Assembly: GCA_001600175.1 (NCBI GenBank)
Contig: BCJC01000004.1
Span: 2,046,001 to 2,110,000 of the forward strand
Direction: 5' to 3'
DNA from: Erythrobasidium yunnanense
Taxonomy: Eukaryota > Basidiomycota > Cystobasidiomycetes > Erythrobasidiales > Erythrobasidiaceae
Length of the DNA: 64,000 nt
A program made the translations under genes and the position numbers. Of this stretch, positions 2,779 to 63,721 are shown piece after piece. Below the pieces are notes generated by a model. The model did no database searches. It was given only the letters and a program-made list of their open reading frames with translations, and had not been told where the DNA came from. The number at the start of each line of letters is the position of its first letter. The first letter of the stretch is position 1.

Positions 2779-3412
2779 ATGTCCAGGAGCATTGTCAAGT
2801 GGCTATCGCTAGTGATACAACGCCGGTCAACGCACGTTCATCGTAGACGTCAAGGCCTACGGACTCGGCGCCGTACCATGGCATCCACGCCTACCGTCCT
2901 GTCGATGCAGTCTCTCCCGCGCATCCGTAACAAGCTCAGGATACGCTTTGCATTAGCCGATTATGCACATTACCAGATCACAGTGAGAAGCTTACGGACG
3001 TTCGTGCGTCTGCACCATCCCCCTCTCCATGCGGCGCTGCTAACGCTCGTGCATCAAGCTGACGAGCATTCTATGAAAGCTGTGAAGTATTGCAAGATGG
3101 CAGGCGCGGCAGGCCATGAGAACTACAATATACTGCAGAACAATGGCGCATTGGCATATCAATCGCTGCCTCATGTGCACTTCCAGTCAGTCATATCTTC
3201 ACAGCACGTTGATCACGCTTGACTGAGATGTGTTCTTTCTCAGCATGATCACCAAGACAGGCCCAGAAGACGGTCTGAAAGCAGAGGTGGTCATCCGGCC
3301 AGGCGATATGCAGGCGCTAGAGAAGTATTGTGAACAACTGTAAGTCCTGCTGTATAACCGTGTACCGAAAGAAGGGCTGAAAAGATCGGTCAACAGTAAA
3401 GCCAAGCTTTGA
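2779..3412 (+). pseudogene. second HIT-family copy, 5' half degenerate
   Basis: The 3' half is clearly homologous to the HIT gene at 566-1331. It has a YHSEKLTDV exon, an NYNILQNNGALAYQSLPHVH block, an intron at the same place in the triad giving HVHFHM after splicing, and a final small exon encoding KAKL before the stop at 3410-3412. The 5' half can be aligned to the other copy only with changes of frame (FIVDVKAYGLG resembles FKLVDTEKTYAF), and the CIFCKI block is not recognisable. No GT donor joins the upstream open frame to the YHSEKLTDV exon. This is most simply a decayed tandem paralogue, although a diverged active gene with an unrecognised 5' exon is possible. Confidence 0.6.
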
Positions 3413-3634: not shown

Positions 3635-6600
3635 CTAGCGACCTCTGGCTATCTTCTCCAGATTCTGCTGCCGGAGCTGAGAATCCGCAAAGAGCGCGAT
3701 GATAAGCTTGGACAGCTCCGTACAGCTGAAGTCGCTCAGATGGCCTTCGTTCCAGAGGTACATGATGTCGACCTGGTAGAACTGGCGTTCAGCATGGTTT
3801 AGCAGTTTCTGAAAGAGAGAGTCTCACCATCGAGGCCTCCAGCAACTCCGAGAGGAACTTGAACTTGAACCAGACTGGTACATGTAGTGCAACAGTAGAC
3901 TATATATAGAAGGATCAGTGCCTGCTGAAGACACCCAACTGAACTTGTCCGCCTACCTCATCCTCGTCCATGAACAGATTCTCCACATCATGTAGCATAT
4001 TACAGAGTTCCATGAGCCGATGCGACGCTTCTTCCGAGATATCTTCTTGGTTCTCGATATCTACCAGTATGCGAAGTAGGACGGCATTGACGAGGACGCC
4101 CATGCTTTCCAGATATGCACTCTTGCGCATGACGGGCTGCAATCACGCATGGTTAGCTTGACAGGATTGTATGTATATCCGGACATACCTTCCATGCTTG
4201 ACCTATCCTGACTAGCGTGGCGACTACTTGGCGGATCAGCCGCTGACATTGGGCGAATGTGGCTGGATCGTCAGTCGCCTTTAGCCCATCCGTCTCGTCA
4301 AGCGTGTCCATCAACGGCACGCGCTGCAGATTCTGCGCAGGCTGTCAGCCTCATGCATCGCTTCGAGATACTGATCTGGCTCACGATCTGTTCGTCAATG
4401 ACATATGCGCCCATCTTATCGAGAGCTGCCAAAGTCTTTCGAGCAGAGTCGCTTTCTGCTCTCCTCCATCTGCCCCTCGGTATGCGCTTCCGCAATAAAT
4501 GACTGCCTTGCCTTGCGATATGAGAGCAGTCATTCGCGAATTGCATCCCGATGGAAGGTACGCTGTTAATGAGCTGAGCGTGCGCGACTGGCATTGTCGC
4601 GCGATAGAGGTTGTAGATGTTCAGGTATGCGTGTGTGAGAAGGATCGAGGTATTGGAGAACAAGGGGATTTCGAAGCTGTATAGATACGCGGTGTGAGTG
4701 GATCCAGAAAAAGTAAACAACTCGAGCGAGACCTCACCTCGGATCGGAGACTGCTAATGCTGCCTCTAAAATCTCAAACGATATGTCCATTACGCGCTTG
4801 GATCGAGACGACACGAGCATGTTCTCGGGCGGTCTCTTGGCAGGACGGCTTGATATTTGAGGCTCGACCTGCACTGCAGCGTGTGAAGGCCCGGCTTGAT
4901 GCGGCAAAGCCTGCGATTGGGGGTCTTGCGTTTCCTGCACCGTCTCAACGATTTCGGCTTTTCGGACTGCGCCGAGCTTGCTGACTTTGACATGACGTGC
5001 TTTCTTGTTCGCTTGACTGAGGTTGGGAGACGAAGTACGCGGAGAAGAGGTGGATGTAGAAGGCTGGCCAGCCGGCTCGGCAGCTGGTGCAGGATCTCGA
5101 CTCCACGCATCCCACTCATCGTCGCTATCGGCTTTCTTGGTTGATTGTTCAGTAGCATGATCATTACTTGCTTGTTGCGGAGACAGCGGCTCATCGAAGC
5201 CCCAGCTCTGCTCTGGATCGGTCGGAGACCCGACAATCTCGTTCTTTGCTGCTGAAGTCTCAGCGATTGGTTGCGCTTCTGCTGTATGCTCGTCTTCTTG
5301 TTCTTGGAAGCCCCACCCATCCTCACTGAAAGCCGGAGACTGTTCGACCATGGGCTGTTCGGCTTTCATAGGCGGCGCAAGCGCAGGCGCCGCTGCTACC
5401 TTGGGCGAAGGCTGCGTATGTGGCTCTTCGTCTAAGCCCCATGCATCTTCCTCAATGTCCATGAGCTCCTCTTTACGCTCGGTGTCCAGTGGAGCAGCAG
5501 CTTTGATTGCAGGCGAGCTTGTTCCAGCACTCTTGACTGAAGCATTGTCCAGGCCCCATTCATCGTCCACTAACTCTTCGAGCGCACTGACGGCTGGGGC
5601 TGGTGCAGGCTGCGACGTGGTCTCGTTGGTGTGCCGTTGCGGCGGAGTGTTTATCACGGGCTCGTTGGTCAGAGTGGCCCACTCCCTCTCTTCCTCCAGC
5701 TTATCCTCCTCTTCCCACGATATCGTATCTGTTTTGTTCCAATATTCATGGCTTGTGATCTCGTTTCTGAACTGGACGAAACACCTTTCGATGACTGCGG
5801 AACTCCAGTGTTGTCCCGCATTTGACACCCATTGGCGCAGAATTGGCTCGACTGACGAATATGGCAATAGATGCGAAGCCTCGAGCGATACTATTATTTC
5901 GCAGAACCGCTGGAAATCGTCGAGTGCTGCTTTATCGGCTGTTTGTGGCAGTGAGGGCACGAGAAGGCGACTAATGAGCATTGAATGGATCGGTGGAACG
6001 AGGAAAGAAAGGAACAGGCTGGCGATCTCGTGGGGTAGAGGCGGAGAGGCGATAGTTGCGTGAATATGGTCGAAAAGGAGCTTGATGGAGCTGATCATCT
6101 GCTGCGGCGAAGTTTGCACAGTGGCCCGGACCTCTATGCCTGCATTTGCTTGTACCAGTTCGAAATTCTGGGGGAGTAGGACGGGCTCAACGAAGTTCTT
6201 CAAGATCGTATTTGCCGTCCGCGAGAAGTGCTTGTCTAAAGGCTCGAAGGCAGAGACAGACGATAGTATAGCTTGCAGCGAGATAGAATGGCCGGCTGAG
6301 ACGGGCTCGGCCACGGTCGAACTTGCCAGGCGTAGGGTAGATGTGCTTGCCTCGATCTGGAGAGGCAGACATTGTCGATATGCGGCATCTAAGCGATTTT
6401 GGAGGGTCCCTTGAAGCTCGTAGTTTCGCCTCTACGACATGATCGACTCAGATTCAGCTAGGTCTCGAAAGGCTCCAGACTTCACGCGCACCTTGAGCGT
6501 CTTATATGTATCAGACTGCTTCTTCCAGTCTTCTGCTTCGTCTAAAAGGCGCGAAGCATGTTGTACAGCTGGTACTGCAGCTTCGAGCTTTCCGTGATCA

Positions 6601-7126
6601 AGCAGCTTCGACACGTCCGCCAGGCCGGCTTGAATGGCTTGAAAAGTGCGTAGTAGATCCACGAACGTATGAGCAGATGCATGTTGGCGTGCAAGCTGCG
6701 TGTGCTTTGCAATTCGTGCGAGTAGCTTCGGCTTCACGCCAGAGCCGTCCTGCAGAACACGAAGCAAACATTGGAGGTCTGCCAGCTTGAAGCGGTCGAT
6801 GACTGCTCACTTCGCCATTCAAGTTCTGTTCCAGCTCATCTAGCTGGCTACCGACCTGCCCTAGACGTTTCTTAAGGTCATGCGTAGTCCGAAGTTGCGA
6901 TACAAAGGCCGGCCATTGCTGCTGGACTGTAGCGTGTAGTTGTTTCTGCGATGCGACATTATCTTAACAGGATGAGAGCCGTGCGCCTTGGATTCTGACT
7001 TGCCCGTGTGTCTTCGGTTTCTTTGGTGACGCGCGCGCTGAGTGTTCTGAGGTTGCCGGCTTTCAGAGCCTCTCCCGATCCGATGATAGTCTCGAGAAAG
7101 CCAGCAATACTAGCATTGTCCGCCAT
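3635..7126 (-). CDS. ZW10/Dsl1-family vesicle-tethering and kinetochore protein
   Basis: ZW10 works in the RZZ kinetochore complex in animals and in the NRZ/Dsl1 tether for Golgi-to-ER COPI vesicles in animals and fungi. The N-terminal exons from ATG 7124-7126 encode the helical start MADNASIAGFLETIIG and a long coiled region. The large central exon (4734-6314) holds LPQNFELVQANAGIEVR and EYWNKTDTISWEEEDKLEEE. The C-terminal exons read YLESMGVLVNAVLLRILVDI and VDIMYLWNEGHLSDFSC, and the stop is at 3635-3637. Between the folded halves sits a disordered insert with five repeated acidic-tryptophan motifs. In yeast Dsl1 a comparable acidic Trp segment binds COPI coat subunits. Several introns interrupt the gene. 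Confidence 0.82.
5094..5580 (-). repeat. five acidic-tryptophan motifs in the ZW10 insert
   Basis: In order along the protein the motifs are DDEWGLDN, EDAWGLDEE, EDGWGFQEQ, EQSWGFDEP and DDEWDAWS. They are separated by Pro/Ala/Ser/Thr-rich spacers of about 25-40 residues. The common core is acidic-x-W-G-(L/F)-acidic; the last copy carries two tryptophans. Tryptophan-centred motifs in acidic context are the known binding sites of the delta-COP mu-homology domain and alpha-COP in Dsl1-type tethers. COPI binding here is an inference. Confidence 0.75.
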
Positions 7127-7247
7127 GAAGGCATTAGATTTCGAGCAATCACCGGAAGGAAGAGATACGAAGCCGGCTAATGCATATTGACAGAGTGAAA
7201 TATAGATACAACAACAGATAGGCTATTCTACTACGAATGATGCGAGC

Positions 7248-10200
7248 CTATGATTGCCTGCTAGAAGCCGGCCGTAGTGTATTCAAAGCTCCTCCAGCCC
7301 TGAACCAGCTCACTTGCTCGTTCGTGAGAGTATGTGACAACTCTGTCTCTATACTTTCCCCGTTGTTCTTGCGTATGCTTAGCTTAACATTCTTCCCTGC
7401 CTGAAAGCTTTGCAAGCCTTGTACACAGAGCTGATGGCAGAATCATCAGTCGTACATCCTGTTTCACAGTCTCTGCTTGGCAACTCACCTCATCCGAACT
7501 ATCGATCTTGTCATACACAGAAGGGTCCGTGAAGAAAAGAGGCAGTAGCCCTTGCTTCTTCAGGTTCGTCTCGTGTATTCTGGCCATGCTCTTTGCAATA
7601 ATGCAGAAGCCGCCCATAAAGCGAGGAGACATGGCCGCGGCTTCTCTAGAAGATCCTTCTCCATAGTTATCGCCTGCCACGACTGCCCACTTGATGCCGG
7701 AGTCGCGGTAATGCCTGAGTCTCGAGCGGGTTAGCGCAGCATGATATCGGGCGCCAGAGCACCTACGCAGCTGTCTGTGGGACTGATCCCCATTCTCCTG
7801 TCACTTGGTTCTGAACGTTGTTTGGTTGATCCTGCGGATAGTGATCAAGTCAGTCATCCTTCGATGCGAGAAGACATGGGACGTACGTTTTCTGCATTGA
7901 TAGCGCCGATGAGCAGATTTTCTGCATGATGATATCGGGCCATTAGCTCGCTCCTATTCACGCGTATTGGGAAAGAAAGTCTGGCGCACGAGAGATGTTT
8001 TCCAGATGTCCCCTGTATTTGTACCACGGCCCAGCAGGCGATATATGATCCGTAGTACATTTTCCTTTGACCTTGATCAGTATCTTGCAGACCTGTTCAT
8101 CCTTCCCATGCCACTTCGCGAAAGGTTTCAAAATTTGTATACGATCAGAGTTCGGGTCCACTTCGACTTGTAGGTGACTGCCATCCTCCGGTGGACCAGA
8201 GTAAAAGTCCAAACTTCGATGATAGCCTGTCTCGGGGAAAGCGGAGCCGGTAGGTGCGGAGAACTTGAAGAGATCGCCGGAAGGCGTTTGAAGACTGTCT
8301 GTTAAGGGATTGAAGTCCAGACTGCCTGCGAACGCGAGGGCGGTAGCAATCTACGATGCAATCGCTCTTCGATTAGACAGAATTGGCTCGCTGTATGACT
8401 TTTGCGTACCTCTGGACTCGTCACGAAAGAGTGCGTAGCGGTATTACCATCTTGACGCCCAGCGAAATTTCGGTTAAAGGACGATACGACTAAGACGACA
8501 GTACGATCAGGCTTAGGGAGTATATCCAGTCGTAATTTTCAACTTACTAGAGTTTTTGGTGCCCTTCTTCATGCTCGGTCTATCCCATTGACCGACACTA
8601 TCGGTAAAATCGCGAACGATCAGCCTCTTTCCACATCAACTGATTTCAAGATCAGGACCTACCACGCTCCGCACGCATTTGCCAACATGTTCCCTCCTAC
8701 TTCTCTAAGTTCATCAAAGAGCCCATCTCGTTCAACTGTACTCCTAATCTCCTCCGAGCCCGGCGCGACCAAGAACTCCGTTTTGACTTTCAGACCAGCA
8801 GACAGAGCTTGATTTGCGATATTATTGGCTCGAGAAAAGTCTTCATAGGATGAATTGGTGCATGATCCGATTAGGGAGGCGGAGATTTGGAGGGGGGAAG
8901 AATTGGATTTTATGGATTGTACGAAGGAAGAGATGGGTTGAGAAATGTCGGGAGAATACCTATGGATGGAAGGCATGAGCTAGCTGGCATAATGCATGGG
9001 GTATGAGATAGGCAGACGTACGGGCCGTTGATATGGGGTTCGAGCTCATCAAGGTTCTGCATTATAGAATCCCAATGATCAGCTATTGCCAACGCCTTAA
9101 ATGGTCCGACGTACGATCTCGATGACCCTATCATATTCGCAGCCCTGGTCCGCCTTCAAGTGCTGTCTATACTCCTGCAATTCATCCACCACGTTCCCTC
9201 TCTCCGTCAATTCCAGATATCTTCCCATGTTGTCGGTATAAGGAAACACCGAAGTCGTTGCGCCTACTTCTGCACCCATATTCCCGATCGTGGACATCTG
9301 AGTGGGCGATAGAGACTCGGCGCCCGAACCGTAGTATTCAATGATGCTGCCTGTGCCGCCTTTGACAGTCAAAATAGAGGCGAGTTTGAGGATGATGTCT
9401 GCAAAAGTCGTAGATTGTATGAGCTGTGAAGTGGTATCAAAGAACTGAGCAAGGCACCTTTCGCGGACGTCCAGCCTGAGAGTCGACCAGTGAGGTGCAC
9501 ACCGATGACTTTCGGACATCTGACTTGGTAAGGCAGGCCAACCATGACATCAACGGCTTCCGCTCCTCCAACTCCGATCCTAGACATAGGCCATCAGCTA
9601 CAGCAACACATTTTCTCGAGTCGTTGCATACCCCAACATCGCCATACCAGCTGCATTTGGCGTATGTGAATCGGATCCTACGAGAAGCGAGCCTGGCTGG
9701 GCGTATCTTTCGAAGATGATCTGATGCAAGATCCCAGCACCCGGCTTCCAGAAGTCGAGTCCATACTGCACTTCAATTTTAGCTTCGCATCTAATCGTCC
9801 TCTAGCTGGGAATGTGTACCTTCGCGCAAGCCGTTTCAAGGAAACGATAGACTTCCTTGTGTTCTACTTTCGCAGCTTCTAGATCTGCAACGGCGCCTTG
9901 TCTTGCGACTATCAAGTGGTCTGTATGCACTGAAGTAGGAACTTTGACGCGTGGTAGTTCCGTTGCCATGAATTGGAGAAGGACAGTCTGCGCGTTCGCA
10001 TCTGCGTGAAACTAGTTAGATAGGTGTTTGAGCATACGCTAGAAAGCTTAGATGGACTCACCATGCAAAGCTACCCTTCCAGGCTGAAGCTTGAGTTGCG
10101 AACTTCCTCTTTCAATAGCTTGGCTTTCGGGGTCTTTGAGATGCCCATACAAGATCTTCTCAGAAAGGGTAAGTGGTCTTCTCAGTCTATTCTTGACTAT

Positions 10201-10308
10201 CTGGATGTTGTTGGATAGCCGGGCATAATCGACGACGGGCCGAGTTGCTGCTGCTGCTTTTCGATGCTGAATCCCCTCAACGGCCGTAGCTAGCTTTCGC
10301 AGTTGCAT
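7248..10308 (-). CDS. aconitase-family hydratase, mitochondrial, divergent
   Basis: This is an aconitate hydratase homologue spread over about ten exons. The ATG at 10308 opens [20 protein letters not shown], a basic amphipathic presequence, then [14 protein letters not shown]. Recognisable family blocks follow: [71 protein letters not shown] (first cluster cysteine), [20 protein letters not shown] (other two cysteines), [15 protein letters not shown] and [20 protein letters not shown]. The stop is at 7248-7250. Canonical mitochondrial aconitase has CGPC and SSREHAALEPRHLGG, so this copy differs at conserved positions while keeping all three cysteines and the active-site Ser and Arg. It may be the second fungal aconitase type (Aco2-like) rather than the TCA-cycle enzyme. 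Confidence 0.88.
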
Positions 10309-51552: not shown

Positions 51553-52646
51553 ATGGCAATTCTTCGAGCGGCAGTCCCAAGCGTCCTGGCACTATATGCC
51601 TTGCTCTGCGTATGCAGTGTCAGTGCTACTACTAGCTCTTTTCAGCGCCTACGCCGACAGAGTAGCGACTGCTCCTGCGGCTACAAGCTAAACTCGAAGG
51701 ATGGGGCTTATTTCCCTTTCAAGCACGAGGTCGACTTTACTCAGATCAGTAGCGTCGAAGGACTTGCTGGAGCCAAGATGGACTACAATGGCGGTGATTG
51801 GCCTATTGGACCTACGTCTGAGACAGACGGCATATCTGTCTGCAAGGGGTCCAAAGACAACTATCGCTTCAGCGCTCAAGAAGGCATGCAGCTCATCGTA
51901 CCTGCTCAAGCTAAATCTTCGAATGGCGTCTACTCTGGTGCGGAGGTCAACTTCGCTGTACCCGTTCTGCATGCTGTATCCACAGCATCCATCAAGCTAA
52001 GCAAGATTCCGGGGTCTTCTCAGAACTTTGTGAGCAAGCAATACAGTAACCCTTGCTTCTACTGAGAAATATGGTTCTTGCAGTTCACCTTCACCAAGAA
52101 TCAGGAGGCAAGCAAGGACGAACAAGATTTCGAAGTCCCAGGTAGCTATTGGGGGAAAGGCAACGGTCATGGTCAAGTCCAGTACGGCTCATACGATCCC
52201 AATGATATGTCAAATCAACGCAAGGAATTCCAATACTACGCTTATACGGCTGAAGACGATCCTTCCGGCAAGTTCTTGGATTACGAGTAAGTATATTAAG
52301 TGGTTATATAACTACACTTAAACTAACATCATGTTAGAATCGCCTGGACGAAGTCAGGAACAACCTGGACCTTGAACGGCAAGAAGCTCGAAGGCACCGC
52401 CAAGTATCCTTCCAAGAATCCCAGCACATTCATTCTCAATAATTGGTCCAACAGTGGTCCGTTCACTGAGGTGATTTACTCTTTATTTCGCTACATAGAG
52501 AGGCGTTGCTGACTTGCCTTTCTCCACCGCAGGGCCCACCTACCGAAGACGTAGTCATGAGCGTGAAGAAATTCACCATCTATTACGCAACTGCCGAACA
52601 ACAAGAGCCCGCTGAAGGTTGTACCAACATTTGTACCGTTGACTGA
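51553..52646 (+). CDS. secreted GH16-like glucanase/lectin-fold protein
   Basis: ATG 51553 gives MAILRAAVPSVLALYALLCV and then CSVSA, a clear signal peptide. The mature part begins with a Cys-containing segment (SSDCSCGYKL) and YFPFKHEVDFTQISSVEGLA, typical of a fungal concanavalin-A-fold family near GH16. The presumed active-site strand reads KDEQDFEVPGSYWG, with acidic residues spaced E-x-D-x-E like the GH16 catalytic motif. QLIVPAQ and the DYEIAWTKSGTTWTLNGKKL block also fit. A Cys pair lies near the end (GCTNICTVD) before the stop at 52644-52646. Three introns are needed. Likely an extracellular or cell-wall beta-glucan-active protein; the substrate is uncertain. Confidence 0.75.
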
Positions 52647-54384: not shown

Positions 54385-56227
54385 CTAATACCCATACCTG
54401 AACTTCGGATGTCTGTGACCAAGCTGCGCTACCTCGTCCTCGGTGAGTCCCTCAAGACGATAATCTCGTTTACCTTGCGCCCTCTGCTTATTCTCCCAAT
54501 GCATGTAGGCCAGAGTGATGACATGGACCACGACGATCACTACGGCTACCGAGATACTGGCGGTATGCCCGCGCTTGTACAGCGGAGCGTCTTTGGGAAG
54601 ATAGACCCACGTACTTAGGAGCCCACCTATGTTAAGCATCAACGTTACTACTCCGATACCAGCTGCTCGAGCGGCATCCGGCGCAAAGTTGACAGCTCCC
54701 CATGCTTGAAGCATCCCTCCCAATGCTGCGGACCCAGGAGCAACGAAGAAGGCTCCTGCATAGCGTGCGCCAGGTCTACGCAAAGCGGAGTCAGTACTCA
54801 TAGCCATGATGCTGGAAGGCAACTCACGTCTTTCCGCCTAGGAACAGACCGAAGCCTATGATGATCAAGGGTAGGCACGTTCCAAGTGACCAATAGCCAC
54901 GGTAGCCTCCGGTCTTCCAGGACAAGAACGGAATTAGGAGTGTCCAGACAAAGCCGACCGACCAAGGAGGAGCAGAGCGTAGGTTACGGATGACGGGTTT
55001 GTCGCGAGGATAGAGGCCGGAGATGATGGTAGGCAGGAAGACAGCTAGGCCTTGCAAGATAATAGAGCACAGGAGGGCAGATAGTCCAATCAGATATGCA
55101 TTGATGTTGAAGAGCCCTTGCTTGACAGCTTGTTTGTGCATCTTATCGGCGTTGTCTGAATGTATCTTTGCTGGCTCTTCGGCACGAATGCGGTTGACTG
55201 CAATGATGCGCTCTTCTGGAGTGAGGAACCATGCCCTCTCTGGCGAGTCGGCTAGACCAACCAAGGTGATGAGACCGACTCCAACAGTGACAATGCCCTC
55301 GATGAGCTGATAGGGAGACCCAGCAATCAGTCTCGGTCAATCGGATGTACGAGAAAGAAGGTTCACAAATAACATTCTCCAGCCTTTGACTGAGCCGATC
55401 TGATCGATTTCATTGACAATAGCGTAAGAGAGGACTCCTGCGAACATGCCCGCAGCTGATGCACCCGAAAGGAAGATGCCAGCCCGGAAGACTAGCTCGG
55501 AACGGGTATACCACCGTGTCAAGCAGTAGATACATCCAGGGAAGATGCCCGCTTCGGCTAGTTGAGCATTGAATATTAGTCTTGTACTTCAGATGTATAA
55601 AACTTCGATAGATTCACCTGCTCCGAGTATAAACCTGACCGCGAGCAGCTGTCCATATGTCTTGACATAGGCAGTCGCAAGAGATATGATGCCGAAAGCA
55701 ACAGTACAGCCAGGTAACCACCATCCAGGGCCGACGACTTTGCAAAGGATATTTGAGGGAATCTCGAAGACGACGTATCTGCAGATGTAGCTCATTAGGG
55801 TGGGTATCATACCGTCATACTATTAGTCAAGTACGCGATAAAGTACATCGTGAGAGCGATGTTATAGTCGAAGCCGACGAGGTGGAGTTCGCGCTCTATG
55901 CCGTATACTCTGGCATTGCCAATGTTTATTCTGTCGATGAAGCTCCATGTATACAGAAGCCATAGCATAGGCATCAACTGCAATCATTGTCAGCCGAATA
56001 GTTGCTTGATCATCAGGTAGGTACGTAGCATACGGCCAAGTCGGTCTTCCAGCGGATCCGTGAAATTGTCTTTGCATCGAAATCATTAGTGATCTGTCGC
56101 TCAGCGCGATCTGAATGTTCTGAAGCGCGCGAACGAGCTCAGCATAGTCCAGCACGAAAGGAGCGGAGTGACACGAACCAAGGAAGTCATCTCCACCCTT
56201 GTCCACGATGTCTCCATCAGTCGACAT
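54385..56227 (-). CDS. MFS transporter, Dal5 allantoate/anion permease family
   Basis: This is an anion:cation symporter-type major facilitator. The exons read MSTDGDIVDKGGDDFLGS, then MPMLWLLYTWSFIDRINIGN (TM1 with the family's FxDRxNIGNA signature), RYVVFEIPSNILCKVVGPGW (EIPSNI motif), a central ELVFRAGIFLSGASAAGMFA segment with the Dal5-type R-x-G, and VYLPKDAPLYKRGH with a C-terminal TEDEVAQLGHRHPKFRYGY tail typical of this family. The stop TAG is at 54385-54387. About seven introns are present. Known substrates of the family are allantoate, nicotinate, tartrate and sugar acids. It is divergent from the Zn2Cys6 gene at 56540. Confidence 0.88.
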
Positions 56228-59349: not shown

Positions 59350-60828
59350 ATGGTCGGAACATCGAATGGCAACGGTACAAGCGTCTCTAGCGCCGACTTC
59401 AAGAAGCTCTTCTTCACACCCATCGTTCCATTCAATGAAGATGATACTATCGACTATGATAGCTACAGACAATTCATTCGTCGTTTCATGAAGGACGAGT
59501 ACCTTGAAGCAGGCATTGCGATTATTGCCAACCCGGAAGCCGGTGAACTCTTTACCCTAGACAGAGAGGAGAGACGCAACATCGTCAAGATCTGTGTGGA
59601 AGAAGCTGCTGGTAGATGCCCTGTCGTTGCAGGCGTCGTTCACGTACACACGAAGGGCTATATCGAGACTGCCAAAGATGCACAAGAGCTGTAAGTTTCG
59701 ACTGAGCTTAGACAACGCACACACAGCCGAATCTGATCTTATTCTTCCTCTGCCCTCTTAAAACAGGGGTGCTAGCGGCCTGTTCATCTTCCCACCCATT
59801 GGCGCAGGCGACATCGTCGCAATCTGTAAGTTTCGACTGAGCTTTGACAACGCACACACAGCCGAATCTGATTTTATTATTCCTCTGGCCTCTTAAAACA
59901 GGGGATTCGGACAAGTATCCTGAAGTCTTTAGCGATAGTGAGTTCTTTCGTTGTTTGGGCTTCAAGCGAATCAGGTCTAATAGCTTGATCAACCCAACTC
60001 AGTCATCAAGGATGTGACGGCCGCTGTCAACCTTCCATGCATTATTCACCCAGTCGGAAGGTACTCCATTCCTTTCGGACAAGGTCTGCCCCTGAAGACT
60101 ACCAAGGCGATCCTCGATGAGTGCCCGAACGTGATCGGCTGGTGAGTCTGTAGTCGGTCTGGACGCTCAATAGAGCTGAGTGTCGTCTTGTCTAGGAAGA
60201 TGACATACAACTTCGATGGTTACCGCAAGATCGCACGCTTCCTGCAAAATTACGAGCGACCTGTCGCTATACTTGCAGCTGTCGGACGTGAGTGCAGCTG
60301 ACCAGGCGTCGTCCTCATGAGTTGACTAGTTCCATATACAGATTACATGCACGAGAACCATGCAGACCGTATGTTTGACGGGACATCTTCTGGCGCTTGG
60401 TATGCGTGATGAGGCCATCTGCACAAATGGCTCGACTGACGGACTTGTATATAGGAACTACGCCCTTGAGCCTATGATGGAGCATCTTAAGCTGTGGAGA
60501 AAAGGAGACTGGAAGGCTGCTACCGATCTATGGGAAGGAGGTCTTGCCCAACTTCATCAGTGGTATGTTTCCAGTCAGAAGGTAGCGCCGGCTTGACCTG
60601 ACCAATCCACACAGCATATTCGAGGACATCGGTCGTCTTCACGTCAAGTACAAGACGGCAGTCTGGCTCCGAGGTATCATCAAATCACCAGTCATGCGAG
60701 CACCTATGCCCAAACCGCGTTTGGCTGAAATTGAAGAAGTCAAGGTCGCACTGAAGGGCGCTGGACTGAAGGTTCTGTCGGATAAGGAGATTCAGAAGAC
60801 CATTACTGCCATGAATATCACTTTGTAG
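59350..60828 (+). CDS. DHDPS/N-acetylneuraminate-lyase family aldolase or dehydratase
   Basis: This TIM-barrel class I enzyme acts through a lysine Schiff base. ATG 59350 opens MVGTSNGNGTSVSSADFKKL, then FFTPIVPFNEDDTIDYDSYR, the family's G-E-L-F-T-L-D-R-E-E-R block, GASGLFIFPPIGAGDIVAIW, HPVGRYSIPFGQGLPLKT (Tyr of the catalytic site) and NVIGWKMTYNFDGY (Schiff-base Lys). HENHADRMFDGTSSGAWNYA and a C-terminal helical bundle follow, ending at 60826-60828. Sugar-acid enzymes such as 2-keto-3-deoxy acid aldolases and ketodeoxyglucarate dehydratases belong here; lysine biosynthesis is unlikely in a fungus. Two of its introns are near-identical to each other. Confidence 0.85.
59691..59766 (+). repeat. 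introner-like intron, copy A
   Basis: This is a 76-nt GT-AG intron in the DHDPS-family gene, phase 2 (splits the Leu codon before GASGLF). It differs from the intron at 59826-59901 at only four positions (20, 48, 54, 63). Both copies are preceded by CT and followed by GGG in the exon. It contains a CACACACA-like run and a pyrimidine-rich stretch before AAACAG. Confidence 0.92.
59826..59901 (+). repeat. introner-like intron, copy B
   Basis: This is the second 76-nt copy, separated from copy A by a 59-nt exon. It is phase 1 (splits the Trp codon of VAIW). The exon sequences around the two copies are unrelated apart from CT before and GGG after. The two introns therefore match over their full length but do not reflect duplication of the exon. 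Confidence 0.92.
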
Positions 60829-61073: not shown

Positions 61074-63721
61074 ATGACCTTCACAAAGGTCAGCTCGAGG
61101 CCATGCCCTTAACGTCGTTATGCTGGCCGAGGTCTGAAAGTGCTCGCCTGCAGGACCCAAACGATGAGATCTGCTACAACACTATCCGTACGTTGGCGGT
61201 AGATACCGTTAACAAGGCAAACTCTGGCCATGTACGTTGCAGCACTCATGCGGTGACGAGCCCGAAAAGCTGACGTTCTTATCGGATTCTTGCAATCAGC
61301 CTGGGTCAGTCGAGCTGGTTCGCAAAGCTCCAGCTTGTACATATATCTGATATTCTATGTCACAGTGCTCCTATGGGAATGGCGCCAGTCGCCCACCTGC
61401 TGTGGTCCAGGTTCCTGACCTGCAACCCGAAAAACAGCCACTGGGTAAGCGTCATAGCTCCAGCATAGCTCTCGGCTCATGCATGTCTGCAACCAGCTCA
61501 ATAGGGACAGATTCGTCCTTTCGAACGGTCACGGATGCGCTCTGCAGTACATCCTGCTCCACCTCTTGGGCTACAAGGTCACCATGGATGATCTGAAAGC
61601 AGTAGGTCTCGCACGAAGAGACGCAATGCATGTACTCAAGCCTTGTGTTCCAGTTCAGAACTGTAGACTCCATCACTCCCGGTCACCCAGAAGTCGGCGT
61701 CACAGACGGTATTGAGGGTGTGTGAGGCTCCGCAAAGGCAAGAGCGTCCATGCTGATTATTCGAACAGTCACCACTGGACCTCTCGGACAGGGTGAGATC
61801 GGCCCGCTCACAGCTTTGGAAGGCCGCTGAGCAGCTTTCTAGGTATTTCAAATGCCGTCGGTTTGGCTATCGCCCAAGCGCACGTTGCTGCTACCTTCAA
61901 CAAGCCCGATCTTGAGCTCATCAACAATTACACCTACTGCTTCCTCGGTGACGGATGTCTGCAAGAAGGTGTGGCCTCCGAGGCCTGCTCTCTGGCTGGA
62001 CATCTCCAGCTCGGCCGCCTTATTGCCGTCTACGATGACAACAAGATCACCATTGATGGAGACACCGCTGTATCCTTCACCGAGAACGTAGAGATGCGCT
62101 TCAAGGCCTACGGCTGGCAGGTTCTGCACGTCGAGAATGGAGACTCCGATCTGGCCGCCATGTACGCTGCCATTGAGGAGGGCAAGAAGGAGCTCAACAA
62201 GCCTACCATTATCAACTTGAAGACTACTATTGGTTTCGGCTCGAAGCTGCAAGGTACCCATGGTGTCCACGGAAACGCACTCAAGGCCGATGACACCCAG
62301 CACATCAAGAAGAGCTTTGGCTTCGACCCTGAGAAGTTCTTCCACGTCCCGTCAGAGACCACCGAGACGTACAAGAAGATCGCGGAGAAGGGTGCAGCAG
62401 CCAATGCCGAGTGGGACAAGCTTTTCGACAAGTACAAGCAGCAATACCCTCAAGAAGCGAAGGACCTGCAGCGTAGAATCGATGGAAAGCTTCCAGATGG
62501 CTGGGAGAGCTGCCTGCCCGTTTACAAGCCTACCGACGCAGCCATCGCATCCCGCAAGCTGTCCGAGACCGCCATCTCCAAGATCGCAGACGCTGTACCT
62601 GAATTCACATGCGGTTCAGCCGATCTGACTGGCTCCAACCTTACACGATGGAAGAGCGCTGAAGACTTCCAGCCGGAGTCTACAAAGCTCGGAAGCTATG
62701 CTGGCAGATACTTCCGATACGGTGTCCGTGAACACGGCATGGGTGCAATTATGAATGGTATTGCAGCATACGGAAAGAACCTCATCATCCCATCTGGAGG
62801 CACCTTCTTGAACTTCACTTCCTATGCAGCCGGTGCGTATCAGTGATTTCGCCAACAGACAGAGCTGACACATAGCGTAGGAGCGATCAGACTGGCAGCT
62901 CTTTCTCATCAGCGTGTTATCTGGGTTGCGACCCACGACTCAATCGGTGCGCTATGCTCATCACTCTCGCCGTGCCAAAATCGGACACTTTACTAAATTT
63001 CGCGCATGCCTCGATATTCAACAGGTCTGGGAGAGGACGGCCCGACACATCAACCTATCGAAACTTTGGCTCATTTCAGAGCCTTGCCAAACTGCATGGT
63101 CTTCCGACCTGCCGATGGAAACGAGACTTCAGCCGCCTACCTCATCGCTATGAATGCACACAACCCTTCCATCATGGCCTACTCTCGACAAAACCTTCCT
63201 CAACTCGAAGGATCGACCATTGAGAAGGCTGCCAAGGGAGGATACGTTCTCCGCGAAGCACCAGAGGGCAAGAAGGCCGATATCACACTTGTCTCGACTG
63301 GTTCAGAAGTCGCTATCTGCCTTGATGTTGCTAAGCAACTAGAGTCAGCTGGAAAGACATGCAGATTGGTATCTCTACCATGCTGGGAAGTCTTCGACAT
63401 GCAGAGCCGCGAATACAGACTGTCTGTCCTTCCGTCCGGACATCCAACGATGAGTGTAGAGGCTATGTCGGTAAGTGTAGACTTTCTAGCTTTGGCGAAG
63501 CTCAATCTGACGCATTCGAACAGACCATCGGCTGGTCGAGGTATTCTCACGAACACTACGGTCTCGATACTTTCGGTGCAAGCGGACCATACAAGGAGGT
63601 ATACGCCAAGTATGGACTGGTACCAGACAATCTCACAAAGGTTGCCAATAGGGTCATCGACTTCTACAAGGGCGTCGACCTCCGAAGCCCAGTCGACACC
63701 TGCTTGACTCATGTCCTCTAG
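61074..63721 (+). CDS. transketolase
   Basis: This thiamine-diphosphate enzyme of the pentose phosphate pathway transfers two-carbon units between sugar phosphates. A short first exon (MTFTK at ATG 61074) is spliced to [20 protein letters not shown]. Then come the substrate His region [38 protein letters not shown], the ThDP motif [36 protein letters not shown], the Pyr-domain [26 protein letters not shown] joined to [20 protein letters not shown], and [20 protein letters not shown]. The stop is at 63719-63721. Length and motif order are those of fungal transketolase. Several short introns lie in the first third and around 62832-62880. Confidence 0.95.

Follow-up and report, generated by a model that had tools for sequence, protein, structure and literature searches.

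Two nearly identical introns in one gene of Erythrobasidium yunnanense and the likely recent copying of an intron

The host gene and its surroundings

The gene considered here occupies positions 59350..60828 (+) of the window, i.e., the whole 64-kb stretch of Erythrobasidium yunnanense DNA (64,000 nucleotides) that was analysed. Its model, for which the hand-built version and that of the gene finder are identical, contains 8 exons and 7 introns (76, 76, 65, 54, 54, 55, and 52 nt) and is predicted to encode a 348-aa protein of the dihydrodipicolinate synthase (DHDPS)/N-acetylneuraminate lyase superfamily. The spliced protein gave a single match to PF00701, which covered residues 17-325 (E 8.8e-24) and crossed the junctions of both introns 1 and 2. 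Six NCBIfam models were also matched, all far below their cut-offs. A search of prokaryote genomes with the protein, in collections that have little power for a fungal sequence, yielded 33 pattern matches and no confirmed relative, and a search of the PDB with a fragment of it returned 3 matches only, all with E above 0.7.

Exon 2 (59767..59825 (+)) consists of the 59 nt that separate introns 1 and 2. Its first half encodes DHDPS-family sequence, in which residues 114-124 align with bacterial DHDPS (e.g., GASGLFIFPP with GADAVLVVTP of the bacterial enzyme of PDB 6xgs), and exon 2 is therefore native to the family. In the alignment with 6xgs, the sole one of the four shown that crosses the intron 2 junction, the host protein has about five extra residues beside this junction, in the region of 59740-59945. 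When these residues, which were placed, approximately, at 130-134 and were the only five tried, were omitted, the Pfam score was 88.9 bits instead of 84.2. Such a difference may be no more than the usual variation of loops in a distant subfamily, or it may indicate that the insertion at the second site was not quite seamless. The possibility that the end of exon 2 is a copy of part of exon 1 was rejected, as the similarity of 13/17 is ordinary: 37 of the 1031 17-mers of the coding sequence, that one included, match at 13 or more positions.

The gene finder was self-written and was trained on the long open frames of the window with starting splice weights set by hand; the host gene was not supplied to it. 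Its intron and gene penalties were raised by hand ahead of the run behind all intron counts reported here. A total of 74 introns were predicted in 34,056 coding nt, i.e., 2.2 per kb, with a median length of 59.5 nt, as would suit a fungus and perhaps a basidiomycete. A Pfam scan was applied to 5 of the 12 predicted proteins of the window, and scans of the window with Rfam (gathering thresholds) and for tRNAs returned nothing. The DHDPS-like gene is adjoined by a transketolase gene on the same strand (61630-63721), and a glycoside hydrolase family 16 gene (51778-52646) and a partial model of a major-facilitator transporter (54385-55447) are also found in the window. The gene model at 3915-10308 probably joins two genes, in which an aconitase-like product is presumably followed by an unrelated sequence at the C-terminus. 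When the 64 kb were compared with themselves at E 0.01, the only repeat listed besides the intron pair was a direct one with 68% identity at 971-1259 and 3057-3345. The translations of its two units look like two tandem paralogous genes, both with what we take to be a HIT-like HVHF motif.

The pair of nearly identical introns

Intron 1 (59691..59766 (+)) is 76 nt long with the form GTAAGT...CAG, lies in phase 2 after codon 113, and has a candidate branch site (CTGAT) 30 nt from its 3' end. Intron 2 (59826..59901 (+)), also of 76 nt, lies in phase 1 after codon 133, has the same candidate branch site, and is identical to intron 1 at 72 of 76 positions, end to end and in direct orientation. The positions, identity and phases given for the two introns in the preliminary description were all reproduced. 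The exact match extends 2 nt leftward (CT, at 59689..59690 (+) for intron 1 and 59824..59825 (+) for intron 2) and 3 nt rightward (GGG, at 59767..59769 (+) and 59902..59904 (+), respectively) and then ends, so that an empty site would read CT/GGG, where the slash marks the place of the intron. The 30-nt flanks of the two introns agree at 27% of their positions even with the shared CT and GGG counted in. The identity of exon 2 was 22% to the 59 nt preceding the pair and 19% to the 59 nt following it; the earlier statement that the exons are not duplicated and that the introns share no more than these borders was thus borne out. Intron 3 (59938..60002 (+)), which starts 36 nt downstream of intron 2, is 65 nt long and of unrelated sequence, while the exon to the left of intron 1 measures 341 nt.

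Splicing of introns 1 and 2 is predicted from the sequence: retained intron 1 would lead to a stop after 114 residues and retained intron 2 to a stop after 156. When scored with a weight matrix built from the 74 predicted introns themselves, the 5' splice sites of introns 1 and 2 rank 14th and 19th of the 74.

The similarity of the two introns stands apart in the window. Among the 2701 pairs formed by the 74 predicted introns, introns 1 and 2 share 95% identity, compared to 70% for the next best pair and a mean of 51%. The 81-nt pattern made up of the intron and its shared borders has 2 matches within the 64-kb window, where 0 were expected (100 shuffles). A search with the 76-nt intron on both strands, as had been proposed, was run within the window; with a profile of both introns, neither strand yielded a third copy (the next E-value was 4.8). 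Pairwise searches of the window with the introns returned weak pieces only; the top one, an antisense match of intron 2 at 19956-19892 (~70% over 66 nt, 28.3 bits, E 0.009), is attributed to chance, as 10 of 500 shuffled introns reach its score. The 27-nt intron core had no exact match among prokaryote and viral contigs, which are non-fungal collections with little power for fungal sequence. We also considered whether introns that share a gene are in general more similar to each other. The difference between the 329 within-gene pairs (without the pair of introns 1 and 2) and the 2371 between-gene pairs was not significant (p 0.06), nor was an excess found for the 61 pairs of adjacent introns (p 0.21).

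The 4 differences in 76 positions (95% limits 1.5-12.9%; Jukes-Cantor 0.055) mean that the copying event was recent on the scale of intron decay. The view that recent intron copying, and not exon duplication or ancient inheritance, gave rise to the pair is well supported by the identity of 72/76, by the 95% compared to 70% for the next pair, and by the exact limits of the match; one intron was very probably copied. Exon or tandem genomic duplication (AGGT type) was rejected, as no duplicated exon sequence was seen (22% and 19%).

Events in which an intron is copied within its gene are rare but have been described before. The closest known case among those described in the sources consulted is that of the nearly identical introns (NIIs) of Oikopleura dioica, for which four same-gene pairs among about 75,000 introns are described and read as intron copying (PMC3879977). 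As in those pairs, two introns of one gene are nearly identical here over their full length, and the surrounding exons are not duplicated; unlike them, as far as they are described, the present pair is found in an Erythrobasidium gene, has shared CT/GGG borders, and is ascribed below to a different mechanism. In the account given for Zymoseptoria tritici, other intron duplications, including tandem ones within genes, make up < 1% of single gains (PMC4457414).

Routes by which the intron may have been copied

The sequence CTGGG occurs 2 times in the 1047-nt coding sequence, compared to ~1.0 expected, and both occurrences carry the intron. A shared border run of at least 5 nt is found in 16 of the 2701 intron pairs (~0.006 by chance), and an identical border from -2 to +3 in 4 of the 2701 (~0.0015 by chance), the pair of introns 1 and 2 being included in both counts. 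As the CT/GGG motif was named after it had been seen, the larger chance figure of 0.006 is used. No target-site duplication (TSD) was found at either intron: near the borders 3-mers alone recur (4 placements for intron 1 and 2 for intron 2), and the only one of these shared by the two copies, TAA, is internal to the intron at either end. Neither is there a terminal inverted repeat (TIR), as 6 and 5 of 16 terminal positions match where 4 are expected with equal base use, or a perfect palindrome of at least 6 nt in either intron. The predicted RNA folds of -7.8 and -6.0 kcal/mol are not unusual (z 0.24 and 1.30), given that 108 and 188 of 200 shuffles, respectively, fold as well or better.

We infer that the copying took place at the DNA level, which is the uncertain part of the explanation. 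The most likely route, which we put forward tentatively, is local template copying in the course of DNA repair or replication, with the short matches CT and GGG as guides. In this proposal, the source would be an ordinary spliceosomal intron, and a strand that had broken or stalled at the empty CT/GGG would anneal to the matching intron border through 2-3 nt (CT or CTG). The strand would then copy the 76 nt and GGG and rejoin its own site by GGG pairing, so that the copy would land, in the same orientation, in the one further CTGGG that the coding sequence contains. The copied piece would be a complete intron that is spliced out, leaving the protein unchanged and the exons, as far as visible, unaltered, and the event would have survived for this reason.

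Short-match template switching at the DNA level is favoured because of the distance between the copies, the matched borders, and the kept neighbour introns. Source and target are separated by 59 nt of exon, and short matches are found at both junctions (CT on the left and GGG on the right). In the description given for yeast, template-switch insertions have templates within 100 bp and flanks with microhomology, and in one tumour sample 80% of junctions had 2-12 bp matches with an average of 3.7 (PMC8421209). The present case thus resembles these insertions in its template within about 100 bp and its short junction matches. It differs from them in that the templated insertions sought in that study, as described, were inverted copies, while a whole intron was copied directly here (PMC8421209). 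Likewise, most of the templated inverted duplications described for breaks in yeast measure about 5-34 bp (PMC11724301), whereas the intron copy is direct and of 76-81 nt, which counts against template copying. Also counting against it is that the 5-nt border match could be the result of chance or of splice-site preference. No description of intron gain by exactly this DNA route was found in the portions of the literature examined.

A route through RNA is rather unlikely by our assessment but remains a strong rival, and such intron pairs are usually explained by reverse splicing in the accounts of PMC3879977 and PMC3443670. The intron could have been reverse spliced at CT/GGG of the same transcript, followed by recombination of the cDNA, or could have entered DNA directly, either through reverse splicing or because a break captured the intron RNA. 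Consistent with this route are the transfer of a whole intron in sense orientation with no TSD, the ascription of the nearly identical same-gene intron pairs of Oikopleura to reverse splicing (PMC3879977), and intron transposition via RNA in S. cerevisiae (Lee and Stevens, 2016, as cited in PMC6726248). However, introns 1 and 3 were kept 59 and 36 nt from intron 2, and there was therefore little room for crossovers of an mRNA-derived cDNA, whose recombination would have been confined to very short exons. This argument does not affect direct insertion into DNA, and were intron 2 the source and intron 1 the copy, the 341-nt left exon would leave more room for a crossover. For fungal stwintrons, the model put forward in PMC8469720 and PMC12403724 is that intron RNA is inserted into a double-strand break. 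The sister stwintrons and cropped sister introns of Hypoxylaceae and Xylariaceae resemble the present pair in being similar introns at new positions with seamless insertion (PMC8469720; PMC12403724). They are described with internal symmetry or small TIRs and random exon borders, in contrast to the two introns here, which have no palindrome of at least 6 nt and no TIR. The lack of exon-border bias reported for sister (stw)introns (PMC12403724) also contrasts with the 5 nt shared here and argues against the RNA route.

The preliminary description had ascribed the pair to an introner-type gain, which is only partly supported. The copying of an intron and the lack of TSD and TIR agree with that ascription, while the ordinary folding, the shared exon borders, and the lack of a third copy in 64 kb do not. 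It is improbable that both introns are independent insertions of a dispersed introner or introner-like family with many genomic copies. The near-identical sequence, equal length, non-duplicated exon, and absence of TSD and TIR are as reported for fungal introners (PMC9860276), and a length of 76 nt exceeds the median of 59.5 nt, 14 of the 74 predicted introns, introns 1 and 2 among these, being at least as long. The introner-like elements (ILEs) of Dothideomycetes are similarly described as near-identical and lacking TSD and TIR; they are long for introns, and in two Passalora species four genes each have two ILEs that are 145-626 bp apart (PMC4457414). At the 95% level and with random placement, the window is at odds only with families of more than about 700 further copies in a 15-Mb genome or 1870 in one of 40 Mb. 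Against such a family are the lack of a third copy on both strands of 64 kb and of any other similar pair among the 2701, as well as the ordinary RNA folding and the shared borders. Furthermore, if two sole copies were scattered at random in 64 kb, they would start at most 135 nt apart with a chance of ~0.4% (2 x 135 / 64000); the closeness of the copies therefore makes a local event more probable than a dispersing element.

Fungal ILEs number from a few tens to about 500 copies per species in the summary of PMC3879977 and, according to PMC3443670, have predicted folds that are stable, in contrast to the 2 copies in the 64-kb window with ordinary folding (z 0.24 and 1.30) and shared exon borders; a stable-fold ILE was rejected on account of its folding. 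As in the DNA-transposon introners described in PMC9860276, the similarity between the introns stops at the splice sites. A DNA-transposon introner with TSD or TIR was nevertheless rejected, as neither mark is present, although many introner families also lack them (PMC9860276).

Gene conversion, local duplication, and assembly faults are all processes known in general. It is very improbable that one of them, i.e., older introns made alike by gene conversion, a local duplication with diverged exon parts, or a fault of assembly, explains the pair: the five extra residues beside the intron 2 junction suggest that more than a clean insertion may have happened at that site, but conversion requires sequences that are already similar and should not end precisely at the two splice sites, no trace of duplication is seen in exon 2, and an assembly artefact, which had been named as a possible refutation, is made unlikely by the 4 differences between the copies, both of which are exactly GT...AG and keep the frame.

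Implications for the origin of new introns

How new introns originate is still an open question, and there are few recent cases in which the source can be seen. In the present gene, source and copy lie side by side with shared borders, which makes the mechanism testable. If many genomic copies exist, the pair would represent a new introner family. If, on the other hand, same-gene copies elsewhere share borders and lie near their source, intron gain by local copying would form a route of its own, distinct from introners. We propose, with low confidence, that ordinary introns, as opposed to special elements, can multiply within the gene that carries them, at sites that correspond to the exon borders of the intron itself, via short-match template switching in DNA. 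A large introner survey is described as having dropped intron pairs with similar encoded proteins (PMC9860276), and same-gene pairs would therefore probably have been removed by such a filter. If the proposal is true, local copying within genes could thus be an under-counted source of new introns.
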